Of a stretch of DNA of 37,220 bases, positions 10,845 through 18,181 are shown in pieces. Where the stretch lies: positions 5,624-42,843 of the forward strand of contig MHDZ01000100.1 in the NCBI GenBank assembly GCA_001805055.1. Direction: 5' to 3'. Numbering within the stretch: the stretch's first letter is position 1; each line of letters opens with the position of its first letter. The position numbers and the translations under genes were made by a program. The stretch comes from Nitrospirae bacterium GWC2_57_13. Lineage in GTDB: Bacteria > Nitrospirota > UBA9217. Under the pieces are notes generated by a model. It did not search any database. It was given only the letters and a program-made list of their open reading frames with translations, and was not told the origin of the DNA.

Positions 10845-11906
10845 TCAACCCGCGGCCTTTTTCTCCTCAGCCTTCCGGCCCGCGGCCTGGCGCTCCATCC
10901 GTTTCGGCACCCGATCCATCCCTTCCAGCGCCCTGCTGCAGGCATCGACCGCGGCATCGATCAACTTCTGCTCCGTATCGATATTCGGGTCCGGCAATCC
11001 TGCAACACCGATGCTCATGGTGATCCGCGTGGCATCGGGCCAGGAGAAGGGATGGGCAGCCACGGCTTCCAGCACCCGCGCCGCGGCCTGCACCGCATCG
11101 CCGCGCAGCGTGTTGGGAAACAGGATCACGAATGATTCGCCGGTCCACCAGGCTATGGTGTCCACCTCGCGTATCGTGCTCTGCACCAACCCGATGATCG
11201 ACTTCACCAGCTCCTCATCGGCTGTCCGGCCCATCATGCGGCCGTCAAGATTGATCATCATACAGCTCATCTGCTGCATGAAGCGCACGCACTTCTTGAA
11301 CTCCTTCGAGAACATGGCCTCGAACTGCCGCCTGCTGAACAGTCCCGTTGTGGGGTCTATGATACTATTCCGCTCTTCCGGTTCCGCGGTCAACGCATCA
11401 GTGTCACCGGACGGGGTTCTGGGCACGAGCCGCAGCACAGGACGCCGCACCGCCATCGGCGTCGGTTCAGCGGCCGGGGGGGATGCCTGCTCTTCCGCAG
11501 CCCTGTCCGCCGTCTGATCGAGCAATCCAGCGACCATGACATTCAGTGCCCGCTCCGTATAGGGCTTCTCAAGATATTCGTCAGGCCTGTTCTCGGTGTG
11601 GGCGAAGGAGGCGGTTGAGAACCCTCGGCCCACTGTCAGGATGAGGGGCTTCCCGCGCGTGCCGGCATTATTCCGGAATCGCCTGCACAGGTCCATACCC
11701 TCGGTGCCGGGAAGCGCCGTGTCGATGAGGATCAGATCGAAGGGCTCATGGCTGGCGGTTATGAGCGCGGACATGCCGGACCCTGCCCAGAGCACATCGT
11801 AACCGGCACTCTCCAGGAAATCACGCGCACCATTACCCTTGGTCTCGATGTTCTGGACCAGCAGTATCCTCACCTTTTTCATAAAGAACGCCCCCTGGTC
11901 ACCCAA
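10845..11906 (-). CDS. REC-GGDEF protein with degenerate signature motifs
   Basis: N-terminal receiver (LILIDTALPG...EYLEKPY) and C-terminal diguanylate-cyclase fold (DPTTGLFSRRQFEAMF...WWTGESFVILFPNT...ITMSIGVAGLPD). Likely start 11882 (MKKVRILLVQN). Confidence 0.8.
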   Translation of the reverse strand: MGDQGAFFMKKVRILLVQNIETKGNGARDFLESAGYDVLWAGSGMSALITASHEPFDLILIDTALPGTEGMDLCRRFRNNAGTRGKPLILTVGRGFSTASFAHTENRPDEYLEKPYTERALNVMVAGLLDQTADRAAEEQASPPAAEPTPMAVRRPVLRLVPRTPSGDTDALTAEPEERNSIIDPTTGLFSRRQFEAMFSKEFKKCVRFMQQMSCMMINLDGRMMGRTADEELVKSIIGLVQSTIREVDTIAWWTGESFVILFPNTLRGDAVQAAARVLEAVAAHPFSWPDATRITMSIGVAGLPDPNIDTEQKLIDAAVDACSRALEGMDRVPKRMERQAAGRKAEEKKAAG

Positions 11907-13365: not shown

Positions 13366-13381
13366 CGGCACGCTTCTTGCT
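13366..13381 (+). promoter_or_regulatory. sigma54 (RpoN)-type -24/-12 promoter upstream of cytochrome 1
   Basis: cGGCACGcttcTTGCt: GG at 13367-13368, exactly 10 nt, GC at 13379-13380. Confidence 0.7.
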
Positions 13382-13390
13382 TAATATTGT

Positions 13391-13520
13391 AGCTGCACAA
13401 GTTATAACATCATAATATTGCTCTCAGGGCCTGACGCTTGCGACGGCGGCAGGTCACTGTGAAGGTCTAGAAGCCTTCTTGGCTGTCATCATCAGATGAC
13501 GCACGGGAAGGCTTTTTTAT
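13391..13520 (+). ncRNA. candidate structured 5' leader / riboswitch-like attenuator 1
   Basis: Hairpin CTGACGC-TTGCGACG-GCGGCAG (13431-13452), GAAGG (13461-13465) able to pair with CCTTC (13474-13478), then terminator hairpin plus T6. Same architecture as 15962-16085. Confidence 0.6.
13471..13518 (+). terminator. intrinsic terminator inside cytochrome-1 leader
   Basis: AAGCCTTC ttggct GTCATC atca GATGAC gcacgg GAAGGCTT then T-run. Confidence 0.75.
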
Positions 13521-13770
13521 TTTCTTGCCCTGAAAGATCTTCCCGATGGTCCACAGTACGGCAGAAGCTTGCTTCTCGCGGTCCAGAGACAACTGCGTCA
13601 TGGGTAACTACATGCTGCTTTTTGTGATCTACCGGATTTACAGGAAGAAGCACCGTCCCTTGCCGAAAGCGGCACAGGCAAAAAACGAGAAAGGGGGTAT
13701 TGGATATCTCGGAATACGTACGTTTTGAAGAGCATAGCACTACACAAAACGAGATGAAAAGGAGCGACAC

Positions 13771-15768
13771 ATGAGAAAAGTATTGTTTGTTGCAATGGCA
13801 TTCGCTTTCCTCGCAGTCAGCGCCCATGCCGGAGACAGATCGATCATTATGTCTGTCAATCCGGAACCAGCGCTTCTCGGCAGCACCGTCCGCTTTATAT
13901 GCACCGGTACCGGTGACTGGGAACACGACAGAATTACCAGCGGGAAAATGACGCTCTGGAATGCATCCAGCGTCAGGCTCCTCAGCGGCGTTTCGATGAA
14001 GGTCACCGAACTCACGGCGACCTATGATTACACGATCAAGAGTACGGAAAGCGTAGGCACGTGGAGGTTCGAGTGTACAATCGGTGACGGCGATCATACC
14101 GCTGTCAGGCAGGATACGTTTCTCGTTGCCGCGGCCGGCGGCGGGGGCGGATCCGGAGGGACAAGCCCGATCACGGCCCACCAGTCTATTACCTCATACA
14201 ACGGCCCCGCTACCTGTATTGCCTGCCACAAGACCGCCGGTACGGACATGCTGAACAGCCTGCACATGAAATGGTCCGGTCCGACTCCTGAGGTGACGAA
14301 CGGCGGCGGCGCAACGCTGGGGAAGGCGATCAAAGGCATCAACACCTTCTGTACCTATGCAATGTCTTCAAAGGGCACCTGCTTCGCTTGCCACGTCCGC
14401 TCTGATGGAAACGCGCCCCATGCACCGACGGTGAACGACGTTGACTGTCTCATGTGCCATAATGACACCTACCAGCGGAAGTTTGTCGTGGACCCGAACA
14501 GCAGCGTTACGGTAACAAATGTGCTTGGGATAGTCAAAACATACTCCTTCGGCCTTGTGGAGCCGGACGGCGACTATGTGACCGAACCCGACTTCACCGT
14601 GATGCCTCCGGACGTGACGATGGTTGATATAGCCAAGAACGTCCACAAGCCTACGAGAAAATCCTGCCTGCGCTGCCACGCGAAGGCCGGCGGCTCCGAT
14701 TGGGCGAAGCGCGGTGACATGGGGCTGAATTCCGTGACCCCGACCCGCGACCAGGACGTCCATATGTCTCCCGACGGCGCGAACCTGTCCTGCACGAAAT
14801 GTCACACAACGGCAAGCCACAAGATCGGCGGCCGCGGCATTGACCTCCGCCAGACCGAAGCCGCTGATCCGACCTGTCAAAGCTGCCATACCGCAGCTCC
14901 TCATCGATCGAGCGCTACGATGAACCGGCACGCTGCCGGCCAGGTCGCCTGCCAGGTCTGCCATATCCTCACCTTCGGGAAAGGCGGCGCAACCGAGATG
15001 TCCCGTGACTGGAAAAGCCCCGTCTGGAGCCCGCCCTTCTGCAATGCACAGGGCGGTTTCGTGGGTCATGAGGTCAAAACTTCCAACGTGAAGCCCGAAT
15101 ATGTCTGGTTCGACGGGACTTCGTATGTCTACAACATCGGCGAGGTCATCATGCCCAATGCGCAGGGCATCTACAACATGGCCAAGGCGAACGGCAGGGC
15201 CTTTGACGGCACGTCAAAGATCGTACCCATCAAGCGCCACTTCACCGACACGGCCCTGCATGAGTCCGGCAAGATCGTTCCCCCCATGATCATGTGGATG
15301 TTCATGACCGGCGATTTCGACCTTGCTGTTCAGAAGGGCATGGAAGAGCAGAACATGACCGGCAGATACACGATGGTCACCGCAGACGCCGAAATGCTGA
15401 TAACTCATGGCGTTGATCCGAAGACAAAGGCCCCGACCTGTACGGCATGTCACAATACGTATGGAACGACTCCGGACGGCACCAAGATGATACCTTTCGA
15501 TAAATTAGGGTACCACGTCTGGCCGGCAAAGGTCAGGGCCTGCACGCTCTGTCACTCATCCGAGACCATGTCATGGGAATCCATGCATGAGAAGCATCGC
15601 AGCAAGATCAGAAGCTGCAAAAACTGCCATACCACGGAGCCGATAGGCCTGGTGAAGCCCCAGAGCGACTTGTGCAACGACTGCCACAGCATGAAATCAT
15701 GGAGCGGCGCCAGCACGCACAAAAAACACGTGGAAAAGTATGATTGCACGAAGTGCCATAAGTTCTAA
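13771..15768 (+). CDS. dodecaheme c-type cytochrome with N-terminal Ig-like domain, related to octaheme tetrathionate reductase-type cytochromes
   Basis: 12 CXXCH motifs (CIACH, CFACH, CLMCH, CLRCH, CTKCH, CQSCH, CQVCH, CTACH, CTLCH, CKNCH, CNDCH, CTKCH); signal peptide; ~110-aa non-heme N-terminal domain then GGGGGSGGTSP linker; RBS aaaaggag. Confidence 0.93.
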   Translation: MRKVLFVAMAFAFLAVSAHAGDRSIIMSVNPEPALLGSTVRFICTGTGDWEHDRITSGKMTLWNASSVRLLSGVSMKVTELTATYDYTIKSTESVGTWRFECTIGDGDHTAVRQDTFLVAAAGGGGGSGGTSPITAHQSITSYNGPATCIACHKTAGTDMLNSLHMKWSGPTPEVTNGGGATLGKAIKGINTFCTYAMSSKGTCFACHVRSDGNAPHAPTVNDVDCLMCHNDTYQRKFVVDPNSSVTVTNVLGIVKTYSFGLVEPDGDYVTEPDFTVMPPDVTMVDIAKNVHKPTRKSCLRCHAKAGGSDWAKRGDMGLNSVTPTRDQDVHMSPDGANLSCTKCHTTASHKIGGRGIDLRQTEAADPTCQSCHTAAPHRSSATMNRHAAGQVACQVCHILTFGKGGATEMSRDWKSPVWSPPFCNAQGGFVGHEVKTSNVKPEYVWFDGTSYVYNIGEVIMPNAQGIYNMAKANGRAFDGTSKIVPIKRHFTDTALHESGKIVPPMIMWMFMTGDFDLAVQKGMEEQNMTGRYTMVTADAEMLITHGVDPKTKAPTCTACHNTYGTTPDGTKMIPFDKLGYHVWPAKVRACTLCHSSETMSWESMHEKHRSKIRSCKNCHTTEPIGLVKPQSDLCNDCHSMKSWSGASTHKKHVEKYDCTKCHKF

Positions 15769-15800
15769 AAAGCAATACAGCTCAAGTATCTGAAAGCAGC

Positions 15801-15837
15801 AAAAGGATGCCCCGCAATTCGGGGCATCCTTTTTTTG
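15801..15837 (+). terminator. intrinsic terminator of cytochrome 1
   Basis: AAAAGGATGCCCCgcaattCGGGGCATCCTTTTTTT. Confidence 0.9.
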
Positions 15838-15936
15838 GGAATATTGCTGAGCGAATCTACGCACGGCAGAGCGTTCTCGCGCACTGTTTCTTATATGCTA
15901 AATCATGAAACTCAGACAATCCAATGGCTTGGCTCC

Positions 15937-15952
15937 GGGCATATTTTTTGCT
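15937..15952 (+). promoter_or_regulatory. sigma54 (RpoN)-type -24/-12 promoter upstream of cytochrome 2
   Basis: GGCATATTTTTTGCTT: GG at 15938-15939, exactly 10 nt, GC at 15950-15951. Confidence 0.65.
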
Positions 15953-15961
15953 TCTATAGTA

Positions 15962-16085
15962 GATGTTTTTTCGAAAAGTGAATAGTACTTTAGCCTCTAC
16001 TGCTCGCGACGGCAGTAAAGCAAAACGAAGGTCATGAAGCCTTCCTGAGAGTCATCTTTCGATGGCTGTCGGGAAGGCTTTTTTA
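15962..16085 (+). ncRNA. candidate structured 5' leader / riboswitch-like attenuator 2
   Basis: Hairpin TACTGC-TCGCGACG-GCAGTA (15998-16017), GAAGG (16027-16031) able to pair with CCTTC (16040-16044), then terminator hairpin and T6. Homologous to 13391-13520. Confidence 0.6.
16037..16084 (+). terminator. intrinsic terminator inside cytochrome-2 leader
   Basis: AAGCCTTCC tgaga GTCATC tttc GATGGC tgtc GGGAAGGCTT then T-run. Confidence 0.78.
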
Positions 16086-16510: not shown

Positions 16511-18181
16511 ATGAAAAGGCTTCTCATCGCTCTATCTGCGATCACGGTTCTGGCCGGCTTTGCATCTGTCGGAAGCGCGGCTTCTACACATCTGACGATC
16601 ACGTCCTACAATGGCCCGCAGACATGCATCGCCTGCCACAAGACAGCGGGCCAGGAAATGCTGAACAGCCTGCACATGAAATGGGCCGGCCCCACGCCGA
16701 ACGTGACGAACGGCGGAGGCGCGGAGCTCGGCAAGGCCGTCAAAGGCATCAACACCTTCTGCACCTATGCCATGTCCTCAGCCGGCGCCTGCTTCAATTG
16801 CCATGTGCGTTCTGATGGAAATGCGCCCCATGCGCCGTCGGAAGCAGACGTTGACTGTATGATGTGCCATAACGATACGTACCAGCGGAAATTCGTTGTG
16901 GACCCGAACAGCGGCCTGACCGTAAAGAACGTTCTTGGCCAGACGAAAACATACTATTTTGGCCTCCAAGACGCGCTCGGAAATTATTCGATCGAACTGG
17001 ATTATGCCTTAATGCCTGCAGGAACAACGCCGGTCAGCCTCGCCCGTACCGTGCACCGGCCAACGAAAAAATCCTGCCTCCGCTGCCACGCGAAAGCAGG
17101 CGGCGGTGACTGGACCAAACGCGGGGACATGGGCGTGAACAGCGCGGCCCCGACCGTTGACCAGGATTTCCATATGTCCGCGTCAGGCGCGAACCTCTCG
17201 TGCACGTCCTGTCATAAAACCACGGCCCACAAGATCGGCGGACGCGGCATCGACCTTCGCCAGACCGAAGCTCCCAACCCGACCTGCACCCAGTGCCATC
17301 CCTCGTCTCCGCATGCTAATACCAAGTTGAACCGGCATGCCAGCCGCGGCAGGCTCACTTGCCAGGTCTGTCATATCCGCACCTTCGGCAAGGGCGGCGC
17401 AACCGAGATGTCGCGCGACTGGAGAATCCCCGTCTGGAACGCCGGGTTCTGCAATGGCCAGGGCGGATTTGTAGGAGAAGAAGTAAAGGTTGCCAATGTG
17501 AAACCCGACTACGTCTGGTTCGACGGGACCTCGTATGTATACAACGTGGGCGAAACGATCACGCCCAATGCCTCGGGAGTTTATACTATGGCAAAGGCGA
17601 ACGGCACGCCCTTCGGCCTCAATTCAAAGATCGTCCCGATCAAGCGCCACACTTCCATTATGCCCTTGCACACAAGCGGCAAGATAGTTCCCCCAATGAT
17701 CAACTGGATGTTCATGACCGGCTATTTCGATGACGCTGTCCAGAAAGGCATGGCCGAGCAGGGCCTGACCGGCGGCTACTCGCTCGTACCTGTTGATGCA
17801 GAGATGCTGATCACCCACGGCGTGGATCCGAAGTCAAAGGCGCCGGCCTGTTCAAACTGCCACAATCTCAGCGGAACGACTGCCGACGGCGGTTCGTACA
17901 TGGTGCCCTTCGACAAACTGGGCTATCATGTCTGGCCGGCAAAGGTCAAGGCCTGCACGCTCTGCCACTCTGCCTATAACTTGTCATGGGAAGCAATGCA
18001 TGATAAACATCGTGACAAGATCAGGAACTGCACCAACTGCCATACCAAAGAGCCGACAGGCCTGGTGAAGCCCCAGAGCGACCTGTGCAACGACTGCCAC
18101 AGCCTGAAAACCTGGAGCGGAGCCAGCACCCACAAGAAACACGTTGAGAGGTATGATTGCACAAAATGCCATAAGTTCTAA
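16511..18181 (+). CDS. dodecaheme c-type cytochrome, paralogue of 13771..15768 without the N-terminal Ig-like domain
   Basis: 12 CXXCH motifs (CIACH, CFNCH, CMMCH, CLRCH, CTSCH, CTQCH, CQVCH, CSNCH, CTLCH, CTNCH, CNDCH, CTKCH); aligns colinearly to the first cytochrome from TSYNGPxTCIACHKTAG to YDCTKCHKF*; RBS aaggagg; signal peptide. Confidence 0.95.
   Translation: MKRLLIALSAITVLAGFASVGSAASTHLTITSYNGPQTCIACHKTAGQEMLNSLHMKWAGPTPNVTNGGGAELGKAVKGINTFCTYAMSSAGACFNCHVRSDGNAPHAPSEADVDCMMCHNDTYQRKFVVDPNSGLTVKNVLGQTKTYYFGLQDALGNYSIELDYALMPAGTTPVSLARTVHRPTKKSCLRCHAKAGGGDWTKRGDMGVNSAAPTVDQDFHMSASGANLSCTSCHKTTAHKIGGRGIDLRQTEAPNPTCTQCHPSSPHANTKLNRHASRGRLTCQVCHIRTFGKGGATEMSRDWRIPVWNAGFCNGQGGFVGEEVKVANVKPDYVWFDGTSYVYNVGETITPNASGVYTMAKANGTPFGLNSKIVPIKRHTSIMPLHTSGKIVPPMINWMFMTGYFDDAVQKGMAEQGLTGGYSLVPVDAEMLITHGVDPKSKAPACSNCHNLSGTTADGGSYMVPFDKLGYHVWPAKVKACTLCHSAYNLSWEAMHDKHRDKIRNCTNCHTKEPTGLVKPQSDLCNDCHSLKTWSGASTHKKHVERYDCTKCHKF

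Follow-up and report, generated by a model that had tools for sequence, protein, structure and literature searches.

The window, a stretch of 37,220 nucleotides of DNA from Nitrospirae bacterium GWC2_57_13, carries two genes for c-type cytochromes on its forward strand, at 13771..15768 and 16511..18181. Both products belong to the same family and contain 12 CxxCH motifs each, in agreement with their initial annotation as 12-heme cytochromes. They resemble octaheme cytochromes of the tetrathionate-reductase family, with scores below the family cutoff; the core of the first resembles the TIGR04315 octaheme family, again below cutoff. Respiration of sulfur or of another oxyanion is a possible theme of the regulon described below. 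An ordinary strong terminator (GGATGCCCCGCAATTCGGGGCATCC followed by a T-run) is present at 15806-15838, 3' of the first cytochrome gene, so each cytochrome probably has its own transcription unit. A gene encoding a REC-GGDEF diguanylate cyclase (10845-11906) lies upstream of the cytochromes on the opposite strand.

Each cytochrome gene is preceded by a leader, and both leaders have the same layout on the forward strand: a GG-N10-GC sigma54 site comes first, two hairpins (P1, then P2) follow, and an intrinsic terminator comes last. The sigma54 -24/-12 sites are located where they had been annotated, at 13367..13380 (CGGCACGCTTCTTGCT core; weighted score 22/23, shuffle p 0.00) and at 15938..15951 (GGGCATATTTTTTGCT core; 20/23, p 0.01). 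Both exhibit the core in a TGGCACG-N4-TTGCW context and score well above shuffled upstream DNA, and their use in vivo is predicted. In leader 1, P1 spans 13428..13455, P2 spans 13461..13478 and the terminator spans 13469..13518, with a T-run from 13513 (-28.6 kcal/mol; z -6.6 for the terminator alone). The corresponding elements of leader 2 span 15998..16017, 16027..16044 and 16036..16084, with a T-run from 16079 (-33.8 kcal/mol; z -7.8). The positions of the terminators are those previously proposed, as is the spacing between the -12 GC and the T-run (133 and 128 nt).

The loop of P1 had been described as a conserved loop of 8 nt. It is indeed conserved, but it comprises 6 nt, UGCGAC in leader 1 (13439-13444) and CGCGAC in leader 2 (16005-16010), and it is closed by a U.G pair. 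The antiterminator that had been proposed from the pairing of GAAGGTC with CCTTC also exists, and it can be refined to the second hairpin, P2, which has the same design as P1: the arms GAAGGU and GCCUUC enclose the 6-nt loops CUAGAA in leader 1 (13467-13472) and CAUGAA in leader 2 (16033-16038). The linkers between P1 and P2 are 5 and 9 nt long, within the admitted range of 2-25 nt. P1 is defined by folding and by covariation over 26 leaders, and P2 by folding and by its recurring pattern. In both leaders, P2 and the terminator have one arm in common, which is 3' in P2 and 5' in the terminator, and their folds are mutually exclusive. The full-length leader folds as P1 and the terminator, and the RNA preceding the 3' arm of the terminator folds as exactly P1 and P2 with their 6-nt loops. 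Whole-leader folding gives z scores of -4.3 (leader 1) and -5.3 (leader 2) against dinucleotide shuffles.

A covariance model, R1, was built from 14 leaders of the window's family and refined as R2 from 26 leaders; a covariance-model scan of the entire window returns exactly leaders 1 and 2. The covariation first seen between the two copies of P1 is upheld across these 26 leaders from 14 genomes, with 54 alignment cells altered on both sides of the stem, versus 17.9 +/- 4.4 after shuffling and 5-12 in controls with a displaced pairing. As the 26-row alignment is fitted to the covariance model, this count should be read with caution; an unfitted 14-row MAFFT alignment agrees with it, with 15 double-change cells versus 4.5 +/- 1.7. 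P2 is nearly invariant, as would be expected when one arm also belongs to the terminator, and so contributes little covariation. Only the two short loops, the stems that carry them, and the arms of P2 and the terminator are conserved. These results support the initial proposal of a duplicated, sigma54-driven terminator leader with an antiterminator.

The leader recurs outside the window. Within the window's family, five genomes contain the P2 pattern GAAGGTCNNGAAGCCTTC, with one mismatch allowed, together with P1 and a terminator, and usually with a sigma54 site. One-mismatch P2 matches without P1 and terminator (L001-L007, L011, L012 and L015) were inspected and excluded, and a plain count of GCGACGGC was rejected as a motif test since this word is too common to be informative. 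With R1 and R2, six leaders are found in the window's genome (G000), four in G002 and two to five in G003, G004 and G010, while member genomes of families f4, f6, f14 and f35 contain one or two. Hexaloops are exhibited by 23 of the 26 P1 and 22 of the 26 P2 hairpins, the remainder having 7-nt loops; the leaders of f6 have 7-nt loops in P1 and P2 alike. In one leader of the window's genome (L071:1501-1623, contig C27), a long P1-P2 linker folds as an A/T-rich hairpin, which would hold P1 and P2 spatially close. A scan of viral contigs for the motif found none.

Two hexaloop hairpins, the second of which overlaps the terminator, are the published design of ANTAR targets (PMC3369931), and we therefore searched for ANTAR domains (PF03861). 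The window's genome encodes a REC-ANTAR response regulator (G000:C43:48211-48369), the ANTAR profile of which scores 76.3 bits versus a cutoff of 27.3. Among the 14 genomes of the window's family, the strong motif is present in all five ANTAR-positive genomes and in none of the nine ANTAR-negative ones. The 14 Nitrospirota genomes with a strong motif (13 from a scan of 299 genomes, plus G016 from a separate scan) are all ANTAR-positive, ANTAR being found in 117 of the 299 genomes overall; as related genomes are not independent, the p-values of this co-occurrence are no more than a rough guide. In G000, in G002 and in the f4 genomes G016, G025, G041 and G048, the motif immediately follows the ANTAR gene on its 3' side, and in G003 it flanks that gene. 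R1 gave no convincing match in the ANTAR genomes of Chloroflexota, NC10, Conexibacter and Bacillota. Weak R1 matches lie directly beside Bacillota ANTAR genes (L148, L149 and L152); their P2 loops are of the canonical A1 type, and they were left out of the member count.

Two other features of the ANTAR neighbourhood were observed. Next to the ANTAR gene or its leader, a Cys-containing protein of about 75 residues (CKLF[ST]D...HLC..RRREL...GGFSCEGC) that matches no Pfam family is encoded repeatedly: at L076:10855-11073 (G000:C43) and near ANTAR in G002, G003 and G010. A substrate-binding sensor of the AmiC/NasS type was considered beside the ANTAR gene and rejected, the neighbour being a PGA_cap protein.

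These associations bear on the initial annotation, in which the leaders were read as a candidate uncharacterised riboswitch or as a protein-responsive attenuator gating costly cytochromes. A small-molecule riboswitch, of an unknown class or related to GEMM, would use its ligand to stabilise P1 or P2 against the terminator. Such a device would have the observed terminator/antiterminator architecture and conserved P1, c-di-GMP-type riboswitches regulate Geobacter cytochromes, and the REC-GGDEF gene lies upstream within the window. However, the window contains no Rfam match at gathering thresholds and no GEMM consensus, as already noticed for the latter: leader 1 has no match up to E=10, and leader 2 has only chance-type matches below gathering, with no GEMM among them (a mir-3167 match is merely the terminator hairpin). 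Furthermore, there is no aptamer-like core outside the two short loops, and the motif is strictly associated with, and adjacent to, the genes of an ANTAR RNA-binding response regulator. We consider a riboswitch highly improbable, and the tracking of ANTAR presence by the motif supports the protein-responsive option instead.

The loops of the leaders differ from the canonical ANTAR loop at one position. The adenine at loop position 1 is important for EutV binding. Known ANTAR RNAs exhibit A1 and G4 in every loop (PMC3369931, PMC8934654, PMC8164766). Across the 45 hexaloops of the leaders, position 1 is occupied by C (41 loops) or U (4 loops), and never by A; in contrast, G is present at position 4 in all 45, as in ANTAR RNAs, and position 5 is always A. 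The loop code is Y1-N-N-G4-A5-N here, versus A1..G4 in known ANTAR RNAs.

In the structure of EutV bound to RNA, Tyr164, Arg142, Lys149 and Glu160 hold G4, while Met172, Asn173, Arg175 and Arg177 face the remaining loop and the stem (PMC8934654). With the EutV numbering transferred by our reading of the protein alignment, the ANTARs of motif-positive genomes retain the G4 contacts R142, K149, E160 and an aromatic residue (Phe or Tyr) at 164, and they exhibit an arginine in place of Met172 and an asparagine in place of Arg175. The motif-negative Nitrospirota ANTARs examined have Met172 and Arg175. The R172/N175 ANTARs form one clade (support 99/95), which indicates one evolutionary change spread across many genomes rather than repeated co-evolution. 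We also scanned for paired loops without constraining position 1: R172/N175 loci yielded C1/C1 pairs, and a Met172 locus, likewise from Nitrospirota, yielded an A1/A1 pair (AACGAC, AATGAC). The motif was also predicted from the protein: the L089 genome, selected for its R172/N175 ANTAR, proved motif-positive (E 1.2e-6), and in another R172/N175 genome (L088/G219) the covariance-model search detected no motif. In other Nitrospirota, Met172 ANTAR genes (L044, L186, L189 and L191) have dual hairpins nearby, at least one hairpin of each pair bearing a loop of the canonical A1 type.

The departure at loop position 1 could mean that a different RNA-binding protein, merely travelling with the ANTAR gene, binds the antiterminator, and small conserved genes do adjoin the leaders. 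This is nevertheless highly improbable, as the dual 6-nt-loop geometry, G4 and the overlap of P2 with the terminator are the very description of an ANTAR target, the residues contacting G4 are kept while the loop-facing ones change, and the Nitrospirota locus with the A1/A1 version has a Met172 ANTAR next to it.

In the window's genome, the leaders precede the two 12-heme cytochromes, two further multiheme cytochromes (L071 and L073), an NtrC-type sigma54 activator (L075) and, beside ANTAR, a small operon, where the gene for a small protein comes first and two small genes and an OmpP1/FadL porin come after it. Cytochromes are also leader targets in G002, G003, G004 and G010, and the other targets in the family are a sigma54 activator (G002), the ANTAR itself (G003) and a REC-GGDEF protein (G004). 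In other Nitrospirota families (L052-L058, L066 and L167), DsrE, TusA and OmpP1/FadL genes are found instead of cytochromes. Sigma54 sites were sought in the leaders of the sigma54-activator genes L070 and L075, and none was found; these leaders exhibit TTGACA-like sigma70 elements, which suggests a feed-forward loop, in which the ANTAR would control a sigma54 activator too.

A weak match resembling the leader (E=0.002) was obtained in G005, a genome that lacks ANTAR, and looks like a relic. At this locus (L060:1501-1597, G005:C39), P2 is intact, P1 has decayed and a sigma54-like site is present; genes for the small Cys protein and for Rieske/cytochrome b lie downstream. The relic and the strength of the terminators would fit the absence of any regulation, the leaders being related repeated terminators that simply limit cytochrome transcription, or a decaying repeat element. 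This reading has a negligible probability in view of the compensatory changes in P1, the invariance of G4 and A5 in the hexaloops of both hairpins, the sigma54 sites at a similar distance in 13 of the 18 leaders of the window's family, and the functional relatedness of the target genes.

A GAF/HisKA_2 histidine kinase adjoins ANTAR in the f35, f14 and f6 genomes. Full-length homologues are present in G000 (locus L209, G000:C40:8427-9806), G002, G018, G043 and G296, and a split one in G004. None was found in the ANTAR-less members of the window's family, in G025, or in the incomplete genomes G003 and G010. Within its GAF domain, this kinase carries an insertion in which about seven cysteines are conserved, as read by eye from an alignment of four homologues; kinases of this kind are encoded at L209, L208, L207 and L210, and the G002 kinase gives a weak match to two CW domains. 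This Cys-rich kinase is the likely sensor, and redox or metal would be a reasonable guess for what it senses.

Taken together, each leader is very probably an ANTAR-type, protein-dependent transcription antiterminator, with the Cys-rich GAF/HisKA_2 kinase probably acting upstream; we infer binding, phosphorylation, the signal and the direction of control (activation). Judging by the promoter motifs, the leader transcript would be initiated by sigma54 RNA polymerase and an enhancer-binding activator. By default, the nascent RNA would fold into P1 and the strong terminator and halt about 120 nt in. Upon signal, a kinase, probably the Cys-rich GAF/HisKA_2 protein encoded on G000:C40, would phosphorylate the REC-ANTAR encoded on G000:C43, and the phosphorylated dimer would bind the loops of P1 and P2. 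Bound ANTAR would keep P2 closed and sequester the 5' arm of the terminator, allowing read-through into the cytochrome gene. We further consider it fairly probable that an ANTAR clade of uncultured Nitrospirota was recoded from A1/G4 to C1/G4-A5 by the loop-facing changes Met172 to Arg and Arg175 to Asn, and that in one family it governs a sigma54-dependent respiratory regulon of multiheme cytochromes, which lies outside nitrogen metabolism and may be under a Cys-rich kinase that senses redox state.

An ANTAR would then gate multiheme cytochromes, some of the most expensive proteins that these uncultured Nitrospirota of groundwater make, and their expression would be doubly locked, by sigma54 activation and by antitermination. 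The altered loop code and the identifiable protein changes make ANTAR RNA specificity directly testable, and the covariance model combined with the R172/N175 signature offers a practical way of mapping such regulons in uncultured genomes. In a partial full-text literature collection, no paper was found that mentions both ANTAR domains and multiheme cytochromes.

Known ANTAR antitermination mainly concerns nitrogen metabolism. In Geobacter sulfurreducens, GnfK/GnfR (Ueki and Lovley 2010, as cited in PMC8164766) is reported to be a kinase and an ANTAR response regulator acting by antitermination on nitrogen-fixation genes. This pair resembles the present system in combining a kinase with ANTAR antitermination in an anaerobic, cytochrome-rich bacterium, but its targets are nitrogen-fixation genes rather than cytochromes. 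GEMM-I riboswitches (c-di-GMP / cGAMP) sit upstream of Geobacter multiheme cytochromes and likewise reside in terminator-bearing leaders; however, GEMM-I is a ligand aptamer, and the window leaders have no GEMM match. The RNAs of EutV/EutW (Enterococcus faecalis eut) share with the leaders two 6-nt-loop hairpins with G4 in both, a P2 overlapping an intrinsic terminator, and a REC-ANTAR regulator with a histidine kinase (PMC3369931, PMC8934654). In contrast, the EutV/EutW system has A1 loops, Met172/Arg175 and ethanolamine genes as targets, whereas C or U at position 1, Arg172/Asn175 and multiheme cytochromes behind sigma54 promoters are found here. NasR/nasF of Klebsiella oxytoca and NasT/nasA of Paracoccus also combine an Ntr (sigma54-type) promoter with ANTAR leader antitermination, but they control nitrate assimilation genes through canonical A1/G4 loops; NasR senses nitrate itself, as a one-component NIT-ANTAR protein, and NasT acts together with NasS (PMC5424462, PMC7496416). 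As double control by Ntr and ANTAR is known from Klebsiella nitrate assimilation (PMC5424462), this combination is not new; what is new is the loop code, the changes in the protein that match it, and the cytochrome regulon.
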